Shown here in pieces: positions 13,733 to 21,054 of a stretch of 41,848 bases of DNA. Within the stretch, counting starts at the first letter, position 1, and every line of letters starts with the position of its first letter. Both the position numbers and the translations under genes were made by a program. The stretch covers positions 1 to 41,848 of the forward strand of contig CAJBLA010000007.1 of assembly GCA_903953815.1 (NCBI GenBank), written 5' to 3'. Below the pieces are notes generated by a model. The model was given only the letters and a program-made list of their open reading frames with translations, searched no databases and was not told where the DNA came from. The stretch comes from an uncultured Bacteroidota bacterium. Lineage in GTDB: Bacteria; Bacteroidota; Bacteroidia; Chitinophagales; Chitinophagaceae.

Positions 13733-14154
13733 TTATCTGTTTAACAACCAAGATGATGATTGTATTTTTCCTCCCAACCCATCAATCAATTCAATACCTA
13801 ATGCTTCACAAATTGGTCTTTCTGGTATGGTAGCATTCTTTTGATCTCCTCCATTTGCAAATGCGAGTTGATATTCATTTCCAAATTCATTAAAAATTAT
13901 TTTGATGGATTCTACAACTGTCCTATCCTTATCTATAGAAAGAAAACACTTGTAAACCAATCTCAAGTTTTTAACTATAAACACCCTCTCATTTTCATCC
14001 TGAAATTCTTTGGACCCCTTTAATGCTCTTTGAAAATCATTGTTAACTATCACAAATAACTTATCTCCACTTGCCCTTGCATTCTGAAAATACTCAATAT
14101 GACCTTTATGAATTGGGTAAAATAACCACTAACTATTATCGCTTTAGGCTTCAT
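13733..14154 (-). pseudogene. Cytidylyltransferase-like nucleotidyltransferase with apparent 1-nt frameshift near the N-terminus
   Basis: Minus strand from ATG 14154 reads MKPKAIIVSGYFT.. then leaves frame; the +1 frame continues PIHKGHIEYFQNARASGDKLFVIVNNDFQRALKGSKEF...FANGGDQKNATIPE. The HxGH motif is split across frames at about 14115-14123. Confidence 0.75.
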
Positions 14155-14336
14155 TTCATATATTATTCTCTAAAATATAAGCACCAAACTGCACACCGAG
14201 TACCTACTTTTTAACCACGATTAACTACCTATAAATAAAAAATCAAACTTATAATTAGCTTGATTTTCAGTAGAATGATATTTAACGACTATCTACAAAT
14301 AACCCCTTTACAAATGGACCACACTAATCCAAAATC

Positions 14337-14873
14337 CTACCCCATCAACTTCATAAACACTCCCACATCCTTCAACATTTTCTCAGTAAACTCAAGGGGT
14401 TGGTATAGGGCAACGCGTATTTTTTTATCAATCAAGGTTTCTGCCTTTTCAATTAATTGATATAAATAACTTTTATCAACATCACCCACTATTACTAAAT
14501 CCACAAAGGGATTGTTTTTTCCTAAGGCTAAATCTCCAGTTAGGTAAACTTCATCCACATTACCCAACTTGTCCAATACATTCTCAATAATCTGATCCAA
14601 GCCAACATATTGCATAATAACCCCTCTTAAGGATTTAAACATAGGGTGTTTTGTATTTACTGCGTAATGTTTTGTTTTTGTGTTTTCGTCATCGGTTTGC
14701 TCCTGTATGAGTTGCATGTCCGATAACTTATTTAATTCCAAACGCACTGTATTACTACTTACACCTAAGTCACGTTCTAAACCGCGCAAATACACGGTGC
14801 TAGCGGGGTTGAGTAGCAATTTGGTGAGTAACTGCACTCTTATTTTACCAGTAAAAATTTTATCTAAGATCAT
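14337..14873 (-). CDS. Winged-helix transcriptional regulator fused to minimal nucleotidyltransferase (MNT)-like domain
   Basis: 178 aa; ArsR-like wHTH TVYLRGLERDLGVSSNTVRLELNKLSDMQLI followed by GDLALGKNNPFVDLVIVGD (NTase GS-xxxG...DxD-like arrangement). Confidence 0.7.
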   Translation of the reverse strand: MILDKIFTGKIRVQLLTKLLLNPASTVYLRGLERDLGVSSNTVRLELNKLSDMQLIQEQTDDENTKTKHYAVNTKHPMFKSLRGVIMQYVGLDQIIENVLDKLGNVDEVYLTGDLALGKNNPFVDLVIVGDVDKSYLYQLIEKAETLIDKKIRVALYQPLEFTEKMLKDVGVFMKLMG

Positions 14874-14943
14874 TGGGGTAGATGCGATGTTCGAGAAAGT
14901 ATATGACGGCTTCGCCGTTCTGAGTCACATTTTAATCATGCAA

Positions 14944-14981
14944 ACTCAATATTGTTCAACAAATATAGCGCAATATTGAGT
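14944..14981 (-). promoter_or_regulatory. Putative operator/promoter of the wHTH-MNT gene: 11-bp perfect inverted repeat enclosing a Bacteroidota -7 box
   Basis: Minus strand: ACTCAATATTG-CGC-TATATTTG-TTGAA-CAATATTGAGT; arms are exact reverse complements; TATATTTG matches TAnnTTTG. Confidence 0.6.
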
Positions 14982-15029
14982 AGTTTAATTAATAATTATT
15001 GAGTAAATATTAAGAACAATTAATTTGCC

Positions 15030-16985
15030 TTAGAAATATCTACCCCCCCCCCCCGTCATATCCAATATCTTAGTTTGAAGGCTAGGGTCCAAACGTTCAA
15101 AAATGCTATTATTACTAATAAACTCAGGAACCAGCTCCTTCATTTTACCCACCAGTTCCATTTCATTAGAAATTTTGGAAGCCGAAGTCACTAATAACCT
15201 AAGGTCATTAAAGCTTTCATTAATACTGGTTAGTTCCACCTCTCTTACTTTAGCAATCAATATTTTATCATGGTAAGTAGTTAGGGTATTTTCAGCATCG
15301 TTCAATAATTCCTCATATAATTTTTCACCAGGGCGTAAGCCACTGTAAGTGATATTAATGTCAATATTCGGGATCATACCATACAAACGAATCATTTTTT
15401 TAGCCAAGTCGGCAATAGCAACCGGCTGCCCCATATCAAAAACAAATATCTCACCGCCATTTCCCATACTACCAGCTTCTAATACCAATTGACAAGCTTC
15501 GGGGATGGTCATAAAGTAGCGCGTGATATTGGGGTGCGTTACCGTTAAGGGTCCACCTTTTTCAATTTGTTCCTTAAACCTATTAATTACCGATCCATTA
15601 CTACCAAGTACATTCCCAAAACGGGTTGTAATAAATTTAGTGACAATATTTTTTTCACTAGATAATCCTTGCACGTAAATTTCAGCCATTCTTTTGCTAG
15701 CACCCATAACATTCGTAGGGTTCACCGCTTTGTCGGTGCTGATCATTACAAACCTTTCCGCATTGTATTTTACAGCTAAGTCTGAAACTATTTTTGTGCC
15801 TATCACATTATTTCGAACTGCTTCCGTTGGGCAAAGCTCCATCATAGGAACATGCTTATAAGCTGCTGCATGATACACATAATGTGGTTTAAAGCTTTCA
15901 AATAAACCCTCTATTCTTTTTTCATTAGTGATATCGGCTAAAAACGAAACACAGTTTACACGAGTGCCGCGCTCCTGTAATTCTAATTCAATATTATGCA
16001 GTGGGGTTTCAGCCTGGTCGCACATGATAATCATTTCAGGCGCATAGGGAATTAATTGTCTTACAATTTCACTTCCGATAGATCCTGCTGCACCAGTAAC
16101 CAATACACGCTTGCCTTTTATTTGTGAACGGATTTGATTATTATTAATCACAATAGGGTCGCGTTCCAATAAATCCTCAATTTTAATAGTCTGTAATTGA
16201 TTGCTGCTAAACTTACCTTCAGCCCACTTGCTATATGGCGGTACACTTAATACTTTAATATCATGGTCCAAACAAAAATCAACCAATTCGTTTTTTCTTT
16301 TGGTTGGCATTGTAAAGCTGGCAATAATTAATTCATCAATAGGTTGAATGGCAACTAATTTTGCAAACTCTTCAAAACGAATAACTTGAATACCATTTAA
16401 ATTTTTCTTAGTTTTCTTTTTATCATCATCAACAAAGGCAACAATATTTATGTTGGAGCTACCACTGTTTTCAAGTACACGTTGTGTTGCCACACCTGTA
16501 TCGGCTGCACCAAAAATCACGACGCTCTTTTTTTTCATCTTGTAGTTTTTCGCATAGGCAAACAAAAACTTAACGAGTACACGATAGCTCACTAATAATA
16601 AAAAGCTAAAACTAGTATATACAATTAATATAGAAGTACTTAAAATAAACTGACTTTTTGCCGCAATGGAAATAGTATTAATTAAAAATAACATCACAGA
16701 AGACGCTAAAATTGAAATAGCTATGCGAACAGCATCCTGTAAACCCGTATACCTAACAATACCCGAATAAGTTTTAATCGCATTAAATACCAAGGTATTG
16801 ATTATTAATATTAACCCAACAGAATTAATCACAATTGCCCAATCCACACCAATTAAGGTTAAATTTTGCCTTATAGCAATAGCTAATAGGTAGGAAAATA
16901 AGGTGGCCCCAATGTCAATTAAAAATATCACCCACCTTGGGACAATACTAAAATTTTTAAACATGAATTTATTGTTTTGATGCAT
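15030..16985 (-). CDS. Membrane-anchored nucleoside-diphosphate-sugar dehydratase/epimerase, CapD/FlaA1/WbpM-like
   Basis: 651 aa; N-terminal TM segments, VVIFGAADTGVATQRVL, KRVLVTGAAGSIGSEIVRQLIPYAPEMIIMCDQAETPLHNIELEL, AAAYKHVPMMELCPTEAVRNNVIGT, MISTDKAVNPTNVMGASKRMAEIY. Start probably at internal Met (MFKNFSIVPRW). Confidence 0.93.
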   Translation of the reverse strand: MHQNNKFMFKNFSIVPRWVIFLIDIGATLFSYLLAIAIRQNLTLIGVDWAIVINSVGLILIINTLVFNAIKTYSGIVRYTGLQDAVRIAISILASSVMLFLINTISIAAKSQFILSTSILIVYTSFSFLLLVSYRVLVKFLFAYAKNYKMKKKSVVIFGAADTGVATQRVLENSGSSNINIVAFVDDDKKKTKKNLNGIQVIRFEEFAKLVAIQPIDELIIASFTMPTKRKNELVDFCLDHDIKVLSVPPYSKWAEGKFSSNQLQTIKIEDLLERDPIVINNNQIRSQIKGKRVLVTGAAGSIGSEIVRQLIPYAPEMIIMCDQAETPLHNIELELQERGTRVNCVSFLADITNEKRIEGLFESFKPHYVYHAAAYKHVPMMELCPTEAVRNNVIGTKIVSDLAVKYNAERFVMISTDKAVNPTNVMGASKRMAEIYVQGLSSEKNIVTKFITTRFGNVLGSNGSVINRFKEQIEKGGPLTVTHPNITRYFMTIPEACQLVLEAGSMGNGGEIFVFDMGQPVAIADLAKKMIRLYGMIPNIDINITYSGLRPGEKLYEELLNDAENTLTTYHDKILIAKVREVELTSINESFNDLRLLVTSASKISNEMELVGKMKELVPEFISNNSIFERLDPSLQTKILDMTGGGGRYF

Positions 16986-17034: not shown

Positions 17035-18138
17035 CTAAGCAATCATTTTTTTATACAAACTAGTAAACACCAAATACAATACCGTTAAAAAACCGGCTAA
17101 AAATCCACCTAGTAATAATGATTTTTTCTTGCTTACCCTATCTTTATCCAAAGGCAAAATAGGACGGTCAATAACCTGTATTAATGGTGTTTCCTTGCGA
17201 AGGGAAACTTTTGAAAGCTCAAGGTTGGCCACCAACTGGGTCAGAATAGCTGTATTAGCTTGCACATCTATTTGACGTCTAGTACTAGGTGTTTTTTTAA
17301 TATTAAAAGCTGGGTTTAAATTATATACATTATCACTTGCAGCTGCAACACCAGTGATTGCATTATTTAATTCAGCACGAATACTATCGGCCTGCTTTTG
17401 TAAAATTTCCACATTCATTCGGGATTTTTTACTTTTAATTTCAACATAATAATCGGAAGTTACCTTGGCTAAGGTTTCACAAAATTCTTTTGAAAAACCT
17501 TCTTCAATGGAATTTACAGTAACATTGATAATACTAATTTTTTTATCAGTTTGAGCTACAGATAAATTGTTGGTAACAATTCCAAGAAAAATATTTTTCA
17601 ATATTGAATCCTGTTGTAAAGTAAAATTGCTTCTGTCGCTAGTTACAGGAAATTGAATGTTTTTTAATGATGGACTTTTTTTCCATCCATCTCTCAATTC
17701 ATTAAACGCAATATAGTATTCTGCCAAACTAACGGTTTTGCCTTTGTATGATACGGGTGATAATAATGTTTTTTCAACAATTTTTCGGCTCTTCATGAGT
17801 GCCATTAAATTAGCGCCCGAAAATGCACCCCCTGCGCCACCGCCACCTAAATCAATGCCAAAGGAACTCGCCAATCCAAGTGCACCACTTAAACCACCGC
17901 CGCCGCTTTTTTCATCTTCCATTGCAAAGGTCAAATCTGCTTTGTAAATGGGCTTTTGAAAAAAAGCATAAGTAAGGCCAATCGCACCGCCAATGGCACT
18001 AACTGCTACTATTAGCTTCCATTTAGTTAATAAAAACTGATACCATTCCCGAATTTTAAAAATGAGTTCCTTTAAGGAAATTTCATCATTATCAAAATTG
18101 GTATTGTTTGAAGTATTTTCTGATTGCATGGTTTTCAA
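17035..18138 (-). CDS. Wzz-type polysaccharide chain-length determinant protein
   Basis: 367 aa; two TM segments flanking a coiled periplasmic region, KPIYKADLTFAMEDEKSGGGG, C-terminal PLIQVIDRPILPLDKDRVSKKKSLLLGGFLAG. Confidence 0.85.
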   Translation of the reverse strand: MKTMQSENTSNNTNFDNDEISLKELIFKIREWYQFLLTKWKLIVAVSAIGGAIGLTYAFFQKPIYKADLTFAMEDEKSGGGGLSGALGLASSFGIDLGGGGAGGAFSGANLMALMKSRKIVEKTLLSPVSYKGKTVSLAEYYIAFNELRDGWKKSPSLKNIQFPVTSDRSNFTLQQDSILKNIFLGIVTNNLSVAQTDKKISIINVTVNSIEEGFSKEFCETLAKVTSDYYVEIKSKKSRMNVEILQKQADSIRAELNNAITGVAAASDNVYNLNPAFNIKKTPSTRRQIDVQANTAILTQLVANLELSKVSLRKETPLIQVIDRPILPLDKDRVSKKKSLLLGGFLAGFLTVLYLVFTSLYKKMIA

Positions 18139-20723
18139 TTTTTAACGTACTTGGTTAACAATTTAACTGTAGCTAAGGCTGCAATAAGTTGGGTAATAAC
18201 TGTAAAGTATTGTAAGGTTACGTTTAAGGCTTTGTCCTTTCTTGAATTGGTTTCAGGTATCACTACCTCACTTCCTGGTTTTACTTTGGGGTTGATTCTA
18301 AATAATCCAAAGTCCTTCATTCTTGCCGATTTTCCGTTGGCATATACCACATAAGCTTTATTGCGTCTTGAATATTCCGAAACACCACCAGCTGCCGATA
18401 CACAATCCCCAATGGTTAATCCTTCCTCATATACAATATTCGTAGGCCTTAATACACCACCACTTATTTTAACTTTATTATCTAATTTTGGTACTACGAT
18501 CTCATCTCCGTCCATTAATATTAAATCTGAATTTGTTCCAGGATGTTTGATTACTTCATTTAAATCAATTGCAATTTGATAAACATCGTCCTGCAATTCC
18601 TGATACATCATATTCAGGGTATCCTTTAAATTTTTACGCTGCATTTCATTGAGCTTCGTGCTCATGGTTAAGCTTGTATTGTTGTTAGTACTATTGCCAT
18701 TTTTTATTTCTTCTGCCATTAATTGTTTTTCCTCCTCCAACCTGGCGTTTTGTTGTGCCTTAAATTTTTCAACATAGGCTTTTTCAATATTTGCTTTTGT
18801 TTCATCCGATTTTAAACTATCTAACTCATACCTTTTGCGTTTGATAAAGGCAAATTCACCACTGGATCCATCTATCAATCCACCTGCACGCGTGATAATA
18901 TCACTCACTCTGTCCAACCTACTTGCTAATGCAAAATTACCCGTGTTTTGAACCTGCCCTGTAATTTTTACAATGGCTGGTTGTGTGTAACCTGTTTGTT
19001 TAGTAATAGTAACTACATCCAATGGTTGCAAAATAAAATTTTCGTTCCCTGAATTAAAACTTAAATCCCCGTTAATTTCAGTTTGTAAAATAGTAGCAAC
19101 ATTATTGTTGGTTACTTTATCGCCAAATTTTAATTGCCTAGCTACTTCCACTTTTTTATTCGCGATATACGTAAAGCCACCTGCTAATAATATTAAATCC
19201 TTTACCGTCATGCTATCGATATAATTAAACTTGCCCGGATTTTTTACTTCACCCATTAAATCAATCGCCAATGAATCACGCATTTCCAACACACTGCTGA
19301 TATACAATTCATCTTCACGTTGTAATAAAATATTTTCAGTTGGATCATTTTTTAATGCCTTAGTTAGGTTCAGTGTAATAAGCTCCTTTAATAAATTAGG
19401 CTTTAACCTTATTAACTGTGCACGACCTGTATAAGCGTCCTCCTTTAAACCATCGGCGCGTTGTACCAAATCAGCAACACGCATGCCTGGTGTAAGTTCA
19501 TATAAATCGGGTCTGAAAATGGCACCCGATAATTTTACCCTGTTTTCGTAACGGTCTAAAATTTTGGAGATAAATATTTCATCGCCGCCCTGTGGTTGGT
19601 ATTTTGCAAAATCGATTTTTGCTAAATCTTTTACCGCTTTTTCCTTACCATTTTTTTGAATAATTTTTACCCATGCTGTGTAAGCGGTATCATCAAAGCC
19701 ACTTGCATATTGTAAAAACTGATTAAAATTTTCATTCCCGATTAGTTCAAAAATACCTGGGCGTTTTACTTGACCCTTAATTTCAATTCTATTTTTATAA
19801 GGAGGCACACGTACCACATCGTTGTCCTTTAAGCCAATATTTTGCGACTGATCCCCGTTCTGCATAAATTGATACAAGTCAATTTTCTTAAACGGTTTGT
19901 TGTTTCGGATCAATTCTATTTGTCGGTAACTGCCAATTTCACTAGGGCCACCTGCTTCTGTTAATACACTCAATACATTGGATAAGGAAGATACATTATG
20001 CACGCCACTTTTATTTGCACCTATAACTGTAACATGTATGGTTCGAATATCTCCTAATGTTAACGCTAACTTAGATTCACCCCTTGCAATACTAGGGTAG
20101 GCGGTATTCGCCATTTGTTGTTTTATTTTTTCAATGGCTGCTTCAATGGTTAAACCTGCTACTTTAATAGGGCCTACATTTTGTACCTGTATACGACCTT
20201 CATTGGAAACTGTAATATCCTCGGCATATTCCTGTACGCCATACACCACTAATTTCAATACATCATTAGGTCCAATTTCATAATTCAATGGCGTAGCAAT
20301 ATTTTGATTGGAACTTAAGCCGGTGTTGTTTTGATTAAACAATTCCGATCCATAAATTAATGGATTAATAGGCTTAAAATTAAAGAAGTCCAAACTATCC
20401 GATTTTTTGGAAGAACTATCGTTTCGGCGGTTACTTTGTTTTTTCAACAAGGGGGATTTATTCCCTGAGGTTGGTTTTGCATTAGCCAGCCTTGCTTTTA
20501 GTTTTGCAAACTCACTCGCCGACATTCCTTTGGCCATGGCTTGTTGTTCCACTTGGTCAATAGATACACCGCCTTGTTTAAGCTGTTGTTGAATTTGTCC
20601 AATTTCTGCTTCAGTTAAAGCATCCACTTTAATAGTGCTTAAATCCTTACCGCTTAAAGCCCCTTGTGCAAAGCCTACATTGGTAATAAATAAAAAAGCC
20701 AGAATGAATAATGAAAACCTCAT
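18135..20723 (-). CDS. Wza-like polysaccharide export protein with multiple SLBB domains
   Basis: 862 aa; signal peptide MRFSLFILAFLFITNVGFAQ, YEIGPNDVLKLVVYGVQEYAEDITVSNEGRIQVQNVGPIKVAGLTIEAA, repeated SLBB segments. Confidence 0.92.
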   Translation of the reverse strand: MRFSLFILAFLFITNVGFAQGALSGKDLSTIKVDALTEAEIGQIQQQLKQGGVSIDQVEQQAMAKGMSASEFAKLKARLANAKPTSGNKSPLLKKQSNRRNDSSSKKSDSLDFFNFKPINPLIYGSELFNQNNTGLSSNQNIATPLNYEIGPNDVLKLVVYGVQEYAEDITVSNEGRIQVQNVGPIKVAGLTIEAAIEKIKQQMANTAYPSIARGESKLALTLGDIRTIHVTVIGANKSGVHNVSSLSNVLSVLTEAGGPSEIGSYRQIELIRNNKPFKKIDLYQFMQNGDQSQNIGLKDNDVVRVPPYKNRIEIKGQVKRPGIFELIGNENFNQFLQYASGFDDTAYTAWVKIIQKNGKEKAVKDLAKIDFAKYQPQGGDEIFISKILDRYENRVKLSGAIFRPDLYELTPGMRVADLVQRADGLKEDAYTGRAQLIRLKPNLLKELITLNLTKALKNDPTENILLQREDELYISSVLEMRDSLAIDLMGEVKNPGKFNYIDSMTVKDLILLAGGFTYIANKKVEVARQLKFGDKVTNNNVATILQTEINGDLSFNSGNENFILQPLDVVTITKQTGYTQPAIVKITGQVQNTGNFALASRLDRVSDIITRAGGLIDGSSGEFAFIKRKRYELDSLKSDETKANIEKAYVEKFKAQQNARLEEEKQLMAEEIKNGNSTNNNTSLTMSTKLNEMQRKNLKDTLNMMYQELQDDVYQIAIDLNEVIKHPGTNSDLILMDGDEIVVPKLDNKVKISGGVLRPTNIVYEEGLTIGDCVSAAGGVSEYSRRNKAYVVYANGKSARMKDFGLFRINPKVKPGSEVVIPETNSRKDKALNVTLQYFTVITQLIAALATVKLLTKYVKN

Positions 20724-21054
20724 AGGTTATGTTTTGTTAATTTGAATATTTTAGATATAGCTACGCTTTTCTAAGTCACATAAAATGAACGAGTTATGAA
20801 CTACTTAGAAGCAATAAATTATTTTAGGGGGGTAATGCGAAATTACATTAAAAATGTATAGAAAATGTAATAAGTAATAGTTAATTTTTGACAATATTTA
20901 GGTAACATCATTATAACGATTTATCTCCTTTATTTATTGCTGATAAAGTATACTTACATCATTTCTTTATACGCGTTTGGATTATGAATATTTCCCCCTT
21001 TTTGCCCAAACAAAAATTATTATTCGTTATTTTTACATTATATACAAAAATCAT

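Follow-up and report, generated by a model that had tools for sequence, protein, structure and literature searches.

A probable two-stage control region, with autorepression and elongation-factor loading, in a surface-polysaccharide locus of an uncultured Bacteroidota bacterium

In the JUMPstart/ops leaders of Gammaproteobacteria (RF01707), which are linked to the NusG paralogue RfaH, the 5′ leader of a polysaccharide operon contains a stem-loop and, downstream of it, a GGCG..AGC motif, and the ops motif itself is GGCGGTAGCGT. In Bacteroides, nascent-RNA hairpins help UpxY at its leaders, and B. fragilis has one UpxY per own locus, plus UpxZ inhibitors. The UpxY proteins prevent premature termination in the 5′ leaders of polysaccharide operons (PMC7819879) and also contact upstream duplex DNA (PMC12691694), and in Bacteroides capsule loci the promoter lies between inverted repeats (PMC13114119). 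The locus described here is compared with these systems and with the autorepressors of the MarR/ArsR type.

We analysed a window of 41,848 nucleotides (the whole stretch of DNA under study) in which a gene at 14337-14873 (minus strand) encodes a 178-aa regulator that, as judged by sequence and fold, consists of a winged helix and a degenerate nucleotidyltransferase (wHTH-MNT). The reading that we prefer, at a probability of about two in three, is that this gene is preceded by a two-stage control region, in which autorepression by the wHTH-MNT protein would be followed by the loading of a UpxY-type factor at the leader. In the surface-polysaccharide locus to which it belongs, the region would lie where conserved export genes of the wza-wzc-capD type give way to sugar genes that vary between strains. 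In the first stage, the wHTH-MNT protein is predicted to bind half-sites (core ACTCAA/TTGAGT) around its own -7 box and start and, if the sign of regulation is as we suppose, to repress its own gene. In the second, the departing RNA polymerase would transcribe TGTGACTCAG-AAC-GGCGAAGCC-GT, and a polymerase that had escaped may pause at the P2/P3 leader and take up a UpxY-like factor, which would carry the polymerase through the long operon. The computed results on which this reading is based are the conservation, the fixed operator spacing, the gene specificity, the compensated stems, and the upxY linkage.

The C-terminal domain of the 178-aa protein weakly matched the nucleotidyltransferase family in sequence, the HTH Pfam matches were weak across wHTH-MNT orthologues, and no close relative was retrieved from the PDB by sequence. 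A structure model of moderate confidence (pLDDT 69.6) gave Foldseek matches to winged helices of the MarR/ArsR type (OhrR, SqrR, and MepR) and, for the C-terminal domain, to the MNT-type folds HI0073 and MntA. The winged helix is thus indicated by the weak Pfam matches together with the folds matched by the predicted model, and the earlier note's assignment of a wHTH plus a nucleotidyltransferase-like domain was weak from sequence and better from fold. Of the GS/GG motif and D-x-D/E carboxylates of active MNT enzymes, neither was intact in any of the 15 aligned orthologues: all 15 had D125-L/V-x, lacking the second acidic residue, and GS was replaced by GD or, in one, by GQ. Because of this reduction to one Asp and the change of GS to GD, catalysis is unlikely, and the protein is probably not an active enzyme. 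A literature search for a wHTH-MNT capsule regulator returned nothing relevant.

Upstream of the gene, the palindrome ACTCAATATTG-CGC-TATATTTG-TTGAA-CAATATTGAGT at 14981-14944 (minus strand) has two arms of 11 bp that match perfectly and are separated by a 16-nt centre, and within this centre, as the earlier note had described, lies a -7 box of the Bacteroidota type TAnnTTTG (TATATTTG, 14959-14966, minus), equivalents of which were present in many orthologue promoters. The left arm, half-site B (TACTCAATATTG, 14971-14982, minus), is 5′ of the -7 box, and the right arm is half-site C (CAATATTGAGT, 14944-14954, minus). The third half-site that had been proposed at 14999-15006 is present, but slightly displaced, at 15005-14997 (half-site A, TACTCAATA, minus), with 84% identity in close relatives. 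Transcription would start near 14953. Inspection of the sequence 17-23 nt upstream of the -7 box yielded no convincing -33 TTG.

The 11-bp palindrome shape is not rare, and it is position and conservation that bear the weight: the window contains five perfect 11-bp inverted repeats with spacers of up to 30 nt (three of these overlapping), whereas 1.5 are expected per window under a first-order shuffle, and 65% of shuffles had at least one. By its shape alone the palindrome would be compatible with chance; its conservation decides against this. CAATATTG is itself palindromic, and therefore 8 of the 11 arm bases are identical when the arms are read as a direct repeat, the ACTC/GAGT ends being the informative part. 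A search of the 2.62-Mb genome, of the kind that the earlier note had proposed, found only this one site with up to three mismatches allowed.

Phylogenetic footprinting was more informative about the operator. In close relatives (wHTH-MNT protein 84-100% identical) the left arm was kept best, with 94% column identity, and the right arm had 78%. More distant orthologues, 37-65% identical and extending into another family of the same class (L094 is an operator-bearing case), had GAGTA-N7-T[AG]CTC upstream of the gene, with an arm spacing of exactly 7 nt in 19 of 19 distinct cases and, as a rule, a -7 box some 18 nt ahead of GAGTA. When TGAGTA/TACTCA words were counted up to 120 nt upstream of the leader element described below, they were found at 25 of 27 wHTH-MNT leaders, in contrast to 4 of 60 other leader copies (Fisher p = 1.7e-15). 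Exact matches to TTGAGTA-N7-TACTCA in ten whole genomes were almost confined to the wHTH-MNT promoter, the exceptions being one extra match in G096 and an exact match before a sugar dehydrogenase gene in G313. Because the operator words precede nearly all wHTH-MNT genes and few other leaders, the palindrome most likely serves as the operator of the wHTH-MNT gene itself, in a form that has been rearranged in the lineage of the window.

The nature of this rearrangement can be read from the two layouts. The ancestral operator lies just 3′ of the -7 box, with half-sites that face each other 7 nt apart, whereas in the window the half-sites are kept but diverge across the -7 box. Counted from the first base of the -7 box, the GAGT of the window's right arm lies 19 nt downstream, at the position of the ancestral left half-site. 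Our best reading is that the right arm represents this ancestral left half-site, that the ancestral right half has decayed, and that the half-sites 5′ of the -7 box are new. The autoregulatory operator of the earlier note is thus upheld, but not the geometry that it had called ideal for autorepression, and binding at the window operator is the weakest link of our reading because the canonical head-to-head spacing is lost there. The operator would be of an ordinary kind, well supported as a family trait, and its geometry in the window is less certain.

As far as the sequence alone goes, the half-sites might be read by another transcription factor, or the wHTH-MNT protein might activate instead of repressing. 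An activated promoter might lack a clear -33 box, as the window promoter does, and the operator in G313 precedes a sugar dehydrogenase gene instead of a wHTH-MNT gene. We nevertheless consider this rather unlikely: the site accompanies the wHTH-MNT gene in two families, each of the genomes tested has hardly any further copy of it, and its position over the start region fits a repressor. In G313 (locus L060), GAGTA-N7-TACTC and the leader element stand directly before the UDP-sugar dehydrogenase gene, in the position otherwise occupied by the wHTH-MNT gene, which hints at a wider regulon in some species.

The leader element TGTGACTCAGAACGGCGAAGCCGT (14929-14906, minus strand) comprises the 3′ strand of a stem P2 followed by a stem P3, GGC-GAA-GCC. 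It was, beyond the palindrome alone, the best-conserved intergenic piece in close relatives (92% column identity). The short leader hairpin of the earlier note was confirmed as ACGGC-GAA-GCCGT at 14918-14906; it had been given only a passing remark and was thereby underrated, being the more widespread feature. The pattern TGTGACTSA(S)-N3-GGCGAAGCC-RT was found in 57 of 399 family genomes, and the reversed-pattern control gave only a handful of matches; with up to one mismatch, the element was found in 14 of 295 class genomes, other Bacteroidia families included, a few of these matches being chance-like. A sequence logo of 87 non-redundant copies gave the consensus TG[TG]GACTGA[GC]-RRW-GGCGAAGCC-RT; intragenic-looking or chance sites (L088, L091, L104, and L126) were dropped from the leader statistics, and the counts are inflated by related sequences. 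A literature search on the element sequence returned nothing relevant.

The genes behind the element are heads of polysaccharide operons, namely wHTH-MNT genes (27), UpxY-type NusG paralogues (8), Wza/SLBB export proteins, glycosyltransferases, asparagine synthases, NeuA-like proteins, Udg, and others. In a few cases the gene behind the copy is recombinase-like or unrelated; at L050, L051, L093, and L105, it is a tyrosine recombinase-like gene and not a polysaccharide gene. As might be expected of a UpxY-dependent leader, upxY lies within 1.5 kb of 34 of the 87 copies (39%), downstream in 23 and upstream in 11, always on the same strand; the window genome's own upxY lies elsewhere. Given the few upxY genes in a genome of several Mb, such proximity is estimated at well under 1% by chance. 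At the level of whole genomes, a NusG paralogue was present, in a count made by hand, in 46 of 50 element-bearing and 227 of 286 other high-quality genomes (p = 0.047), an association that is weak partly because the paralogue is present in most genomes, and this co-occurrence was set aside as too weak to serve as support.

A second, diverged element, TGTGACTTAGAAAAGCGTAGCTAT, was found in the window at 20757-20780 (minus strand), with a compensated P3 (AGC-GTA-GCT) and with a P2 5′ strand, read from the sequence at 20803-20808 (minus), in which CTAAGT pairs with ACTTAG. The first gene after it encodes a Wza-like SLBB polysaccharide export protein (18135-20723, minus), and a third copy in the same genome precedes another Wza-like gene. 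One more match in this genome (C104:16731) was rejected as chance-like, being in or beside ordinary genes. The genome encodes the housekeeping NusG and one orphan UpxY-like protein, the gene of which is flanked by apparent C-terminal processing protease and MtaB-like genes (annotated by reading).

The RNA fold of the window leader has a predicted energy of -13.8 kcal/mol, with the P2 5′ strand TTGAGT (14944-14949, minus strand) pairing with ACTCAG at 14925-14920. Because the TTGAGT of half-site C doubles as this P2 strand, operator and hairpin overlap in the window. Among the leader copies, the ACTNAS of P2 pairs with an upstream strand: CTCAG occurred upstream of ACTGAG in 8 of 26 copies versus 0 of 31 with ACTGAC, and GTCAG upstream of ACTGAC in 4 of 31 versus 0 of 26 with ACTGAG. 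The mean best-stem score of 9.24 exceeded all 300 partner permutations (7.56 ± 0.25), a test that is inflated by kinship among the sites, and a partner was present at some sites only (score of at least 12 in 23 of 87). Compensatory changes in P3 were found as AGC/GCT in L017 and the window wza copy and as GCC/GGC in L018; an outer extension of P3 by one pair was marginal (p = 0.025), and further pairs gave no signal. The hairpin of L074 has the loop GGC-TTT-GCC.

Two conserved stems near start codons could also belong to a metabolite-sensing RNA or a translational element of polysaccharide operons rather than to a UpxY site. This we regard as unlikely, since the conserved core is short, being mainly a 3-bp stem and a single strand, the proximity of upxY concerns 39% of the copies, and there is no Rfam match, while the upstream stem followed by GGCG..AGC resembles JUMPstart/ops.

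The overlap with P2 also bears on whether the palindrome acts as a DNA operator at all or, as part of the leader, forms a hairpin in the 5′-terminal RNA. In many relatives, GAGTA-N7-TACTC just 3′ of the -7 box would be transcribed as a hairpin, and TTGAGT is also a P2 strand in the window clade. Transcription from the window's -7 box, however, would not include the left arm, which is 5′ of this box. The operator word is specific to wHTH-MNT promoters and missing from other leader copies, and the spacer keeps its length of exactly 7 nt although its bases vary, so that a hairpin in place of the operator appears quite improbable. A capsule-type invertible promoter, as in Bacteroides, is hardly credible and was rejected: although a polysaccharide gene is preceded here, too, by a -7 box that is flanked by inverted repeats, the 16-nt centre carries the -7 box only and is very short for site-specific inversion, and in relatives the arms are found apart, as individual half-sites that are arranged differently.

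Downstream of the wHTH-MNT gene, close relatives differ, having gmd, a sugar isomerase, acyl-carrier and reductase genes, or Udg. Since these genes vary among relatives, the element and the regulator would mark the border of a variable sugar cassette. Between the wHTH-MNT gene and gmd in the window, an apparent cytidylyltransferase-type gene (13733-14180, minus strand) seems to be interrupted by a frameshift, unless the break is an assembly error, and close relatives carry other genes at this position. On the other side, a run of 12 G at 15043-15054 (minus) lies at the 3′ end of a capD/PseB-like gene (15030-16985); relatives have 9-12 G there, and only the last few residues are altered. At the end of this upstream gene, GGGGTAGAT (15038-15046) is exactly complementary to ATCTACCCC (14875-14883), which adjoins the wHTH-MNT start codon; 0.15 matches to this word are expected per window. 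Most close relatives retain both words, and L030 has lost both. Pairing of the two in a read-through transcript could hide the start codon. L074 (genome G408, same genus) has, around 1467-1510, some 20 consecutive C at the start of the wHTH-MNT frame in place of the usual first 15 residues, and the start may therefore be phase-variable there.

Compared with MarR/ArsR autorepressors, the wHTH-MNT regulator shares the winged-helix fold and a short palindromic operator over its own start region, whereas its C-terminal domain is a degenerate nucleotidyltransferase fold (HI0073- and MntA-like) in place of the MarR dimer domain. The leader is apparently a variant of JUMPstart/ops and UpxY leaders that lies outside Rfam: the RF01707 covariance model at gathering score had no match in the window or ten relatives, a JUMPstart search of the region at E up to 10 gave no match, and Rfam gave chance matches only. 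As an analogy of layout, it resembles JUMPstart/ops in its place in polysaccharide 5′ leaders, its upstream stem followed by a GGCG-type motif (here GGCGAAGCCRT), and its linkage to a NusG paralogue, and it is unlike JUMPstart/ops in its sequence, its phylum, and its better-formed 3-bp P3, while the recruitment of a factor is a prediction here. In Bacteroidota it probably plays the part of JUMPstart/ops and would recruit an elongation factor of the UpxY type.

A broader proposal, for and against which we see the balance as even, is that of a widespread Bacteroidota JUMPstart/ops system, in which UpxY-type NusG paralogues, often acting in trans in the manner of RfaH, would recognize one conserved bipartite leader (a nascent-RNA hairpin and a GGC-GAA-GCC non-template hairpin). 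This leader would frequently be gated, in addition, by a wHTH-MNT protein that regulates its own gene, and the operator of this protein would overlap the start site and, in the window's lineage, one strand of the RNA hairpin as well. The known biology of UpxY is that of gut Bacteroides, with a factor for each locus. If a shared short element marks UpxY targets in environmental Bacteroidia, elongation-controlled polysaccharide operons would become findable by sequence, the ops/RfaH strategy would have a counterpart in a second phylum, and the wHTH-MNT operator would be a concrete candidate site for the regulator that adjoins upxY in many loci. The likeness to the Bacteroides capsule leaders is that a UpxY-family NusG paralogue acts in a polysaccharide 5′ leader, known there and putative here. 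Compared by description, the B. fragilis leaders differ in that here one conserved element is present in many operons together with a single orphan UpxY-like protein, and in this respect the system resembles the in-trans action of RfaH more than that of the B. fragilis UpxY proteins.
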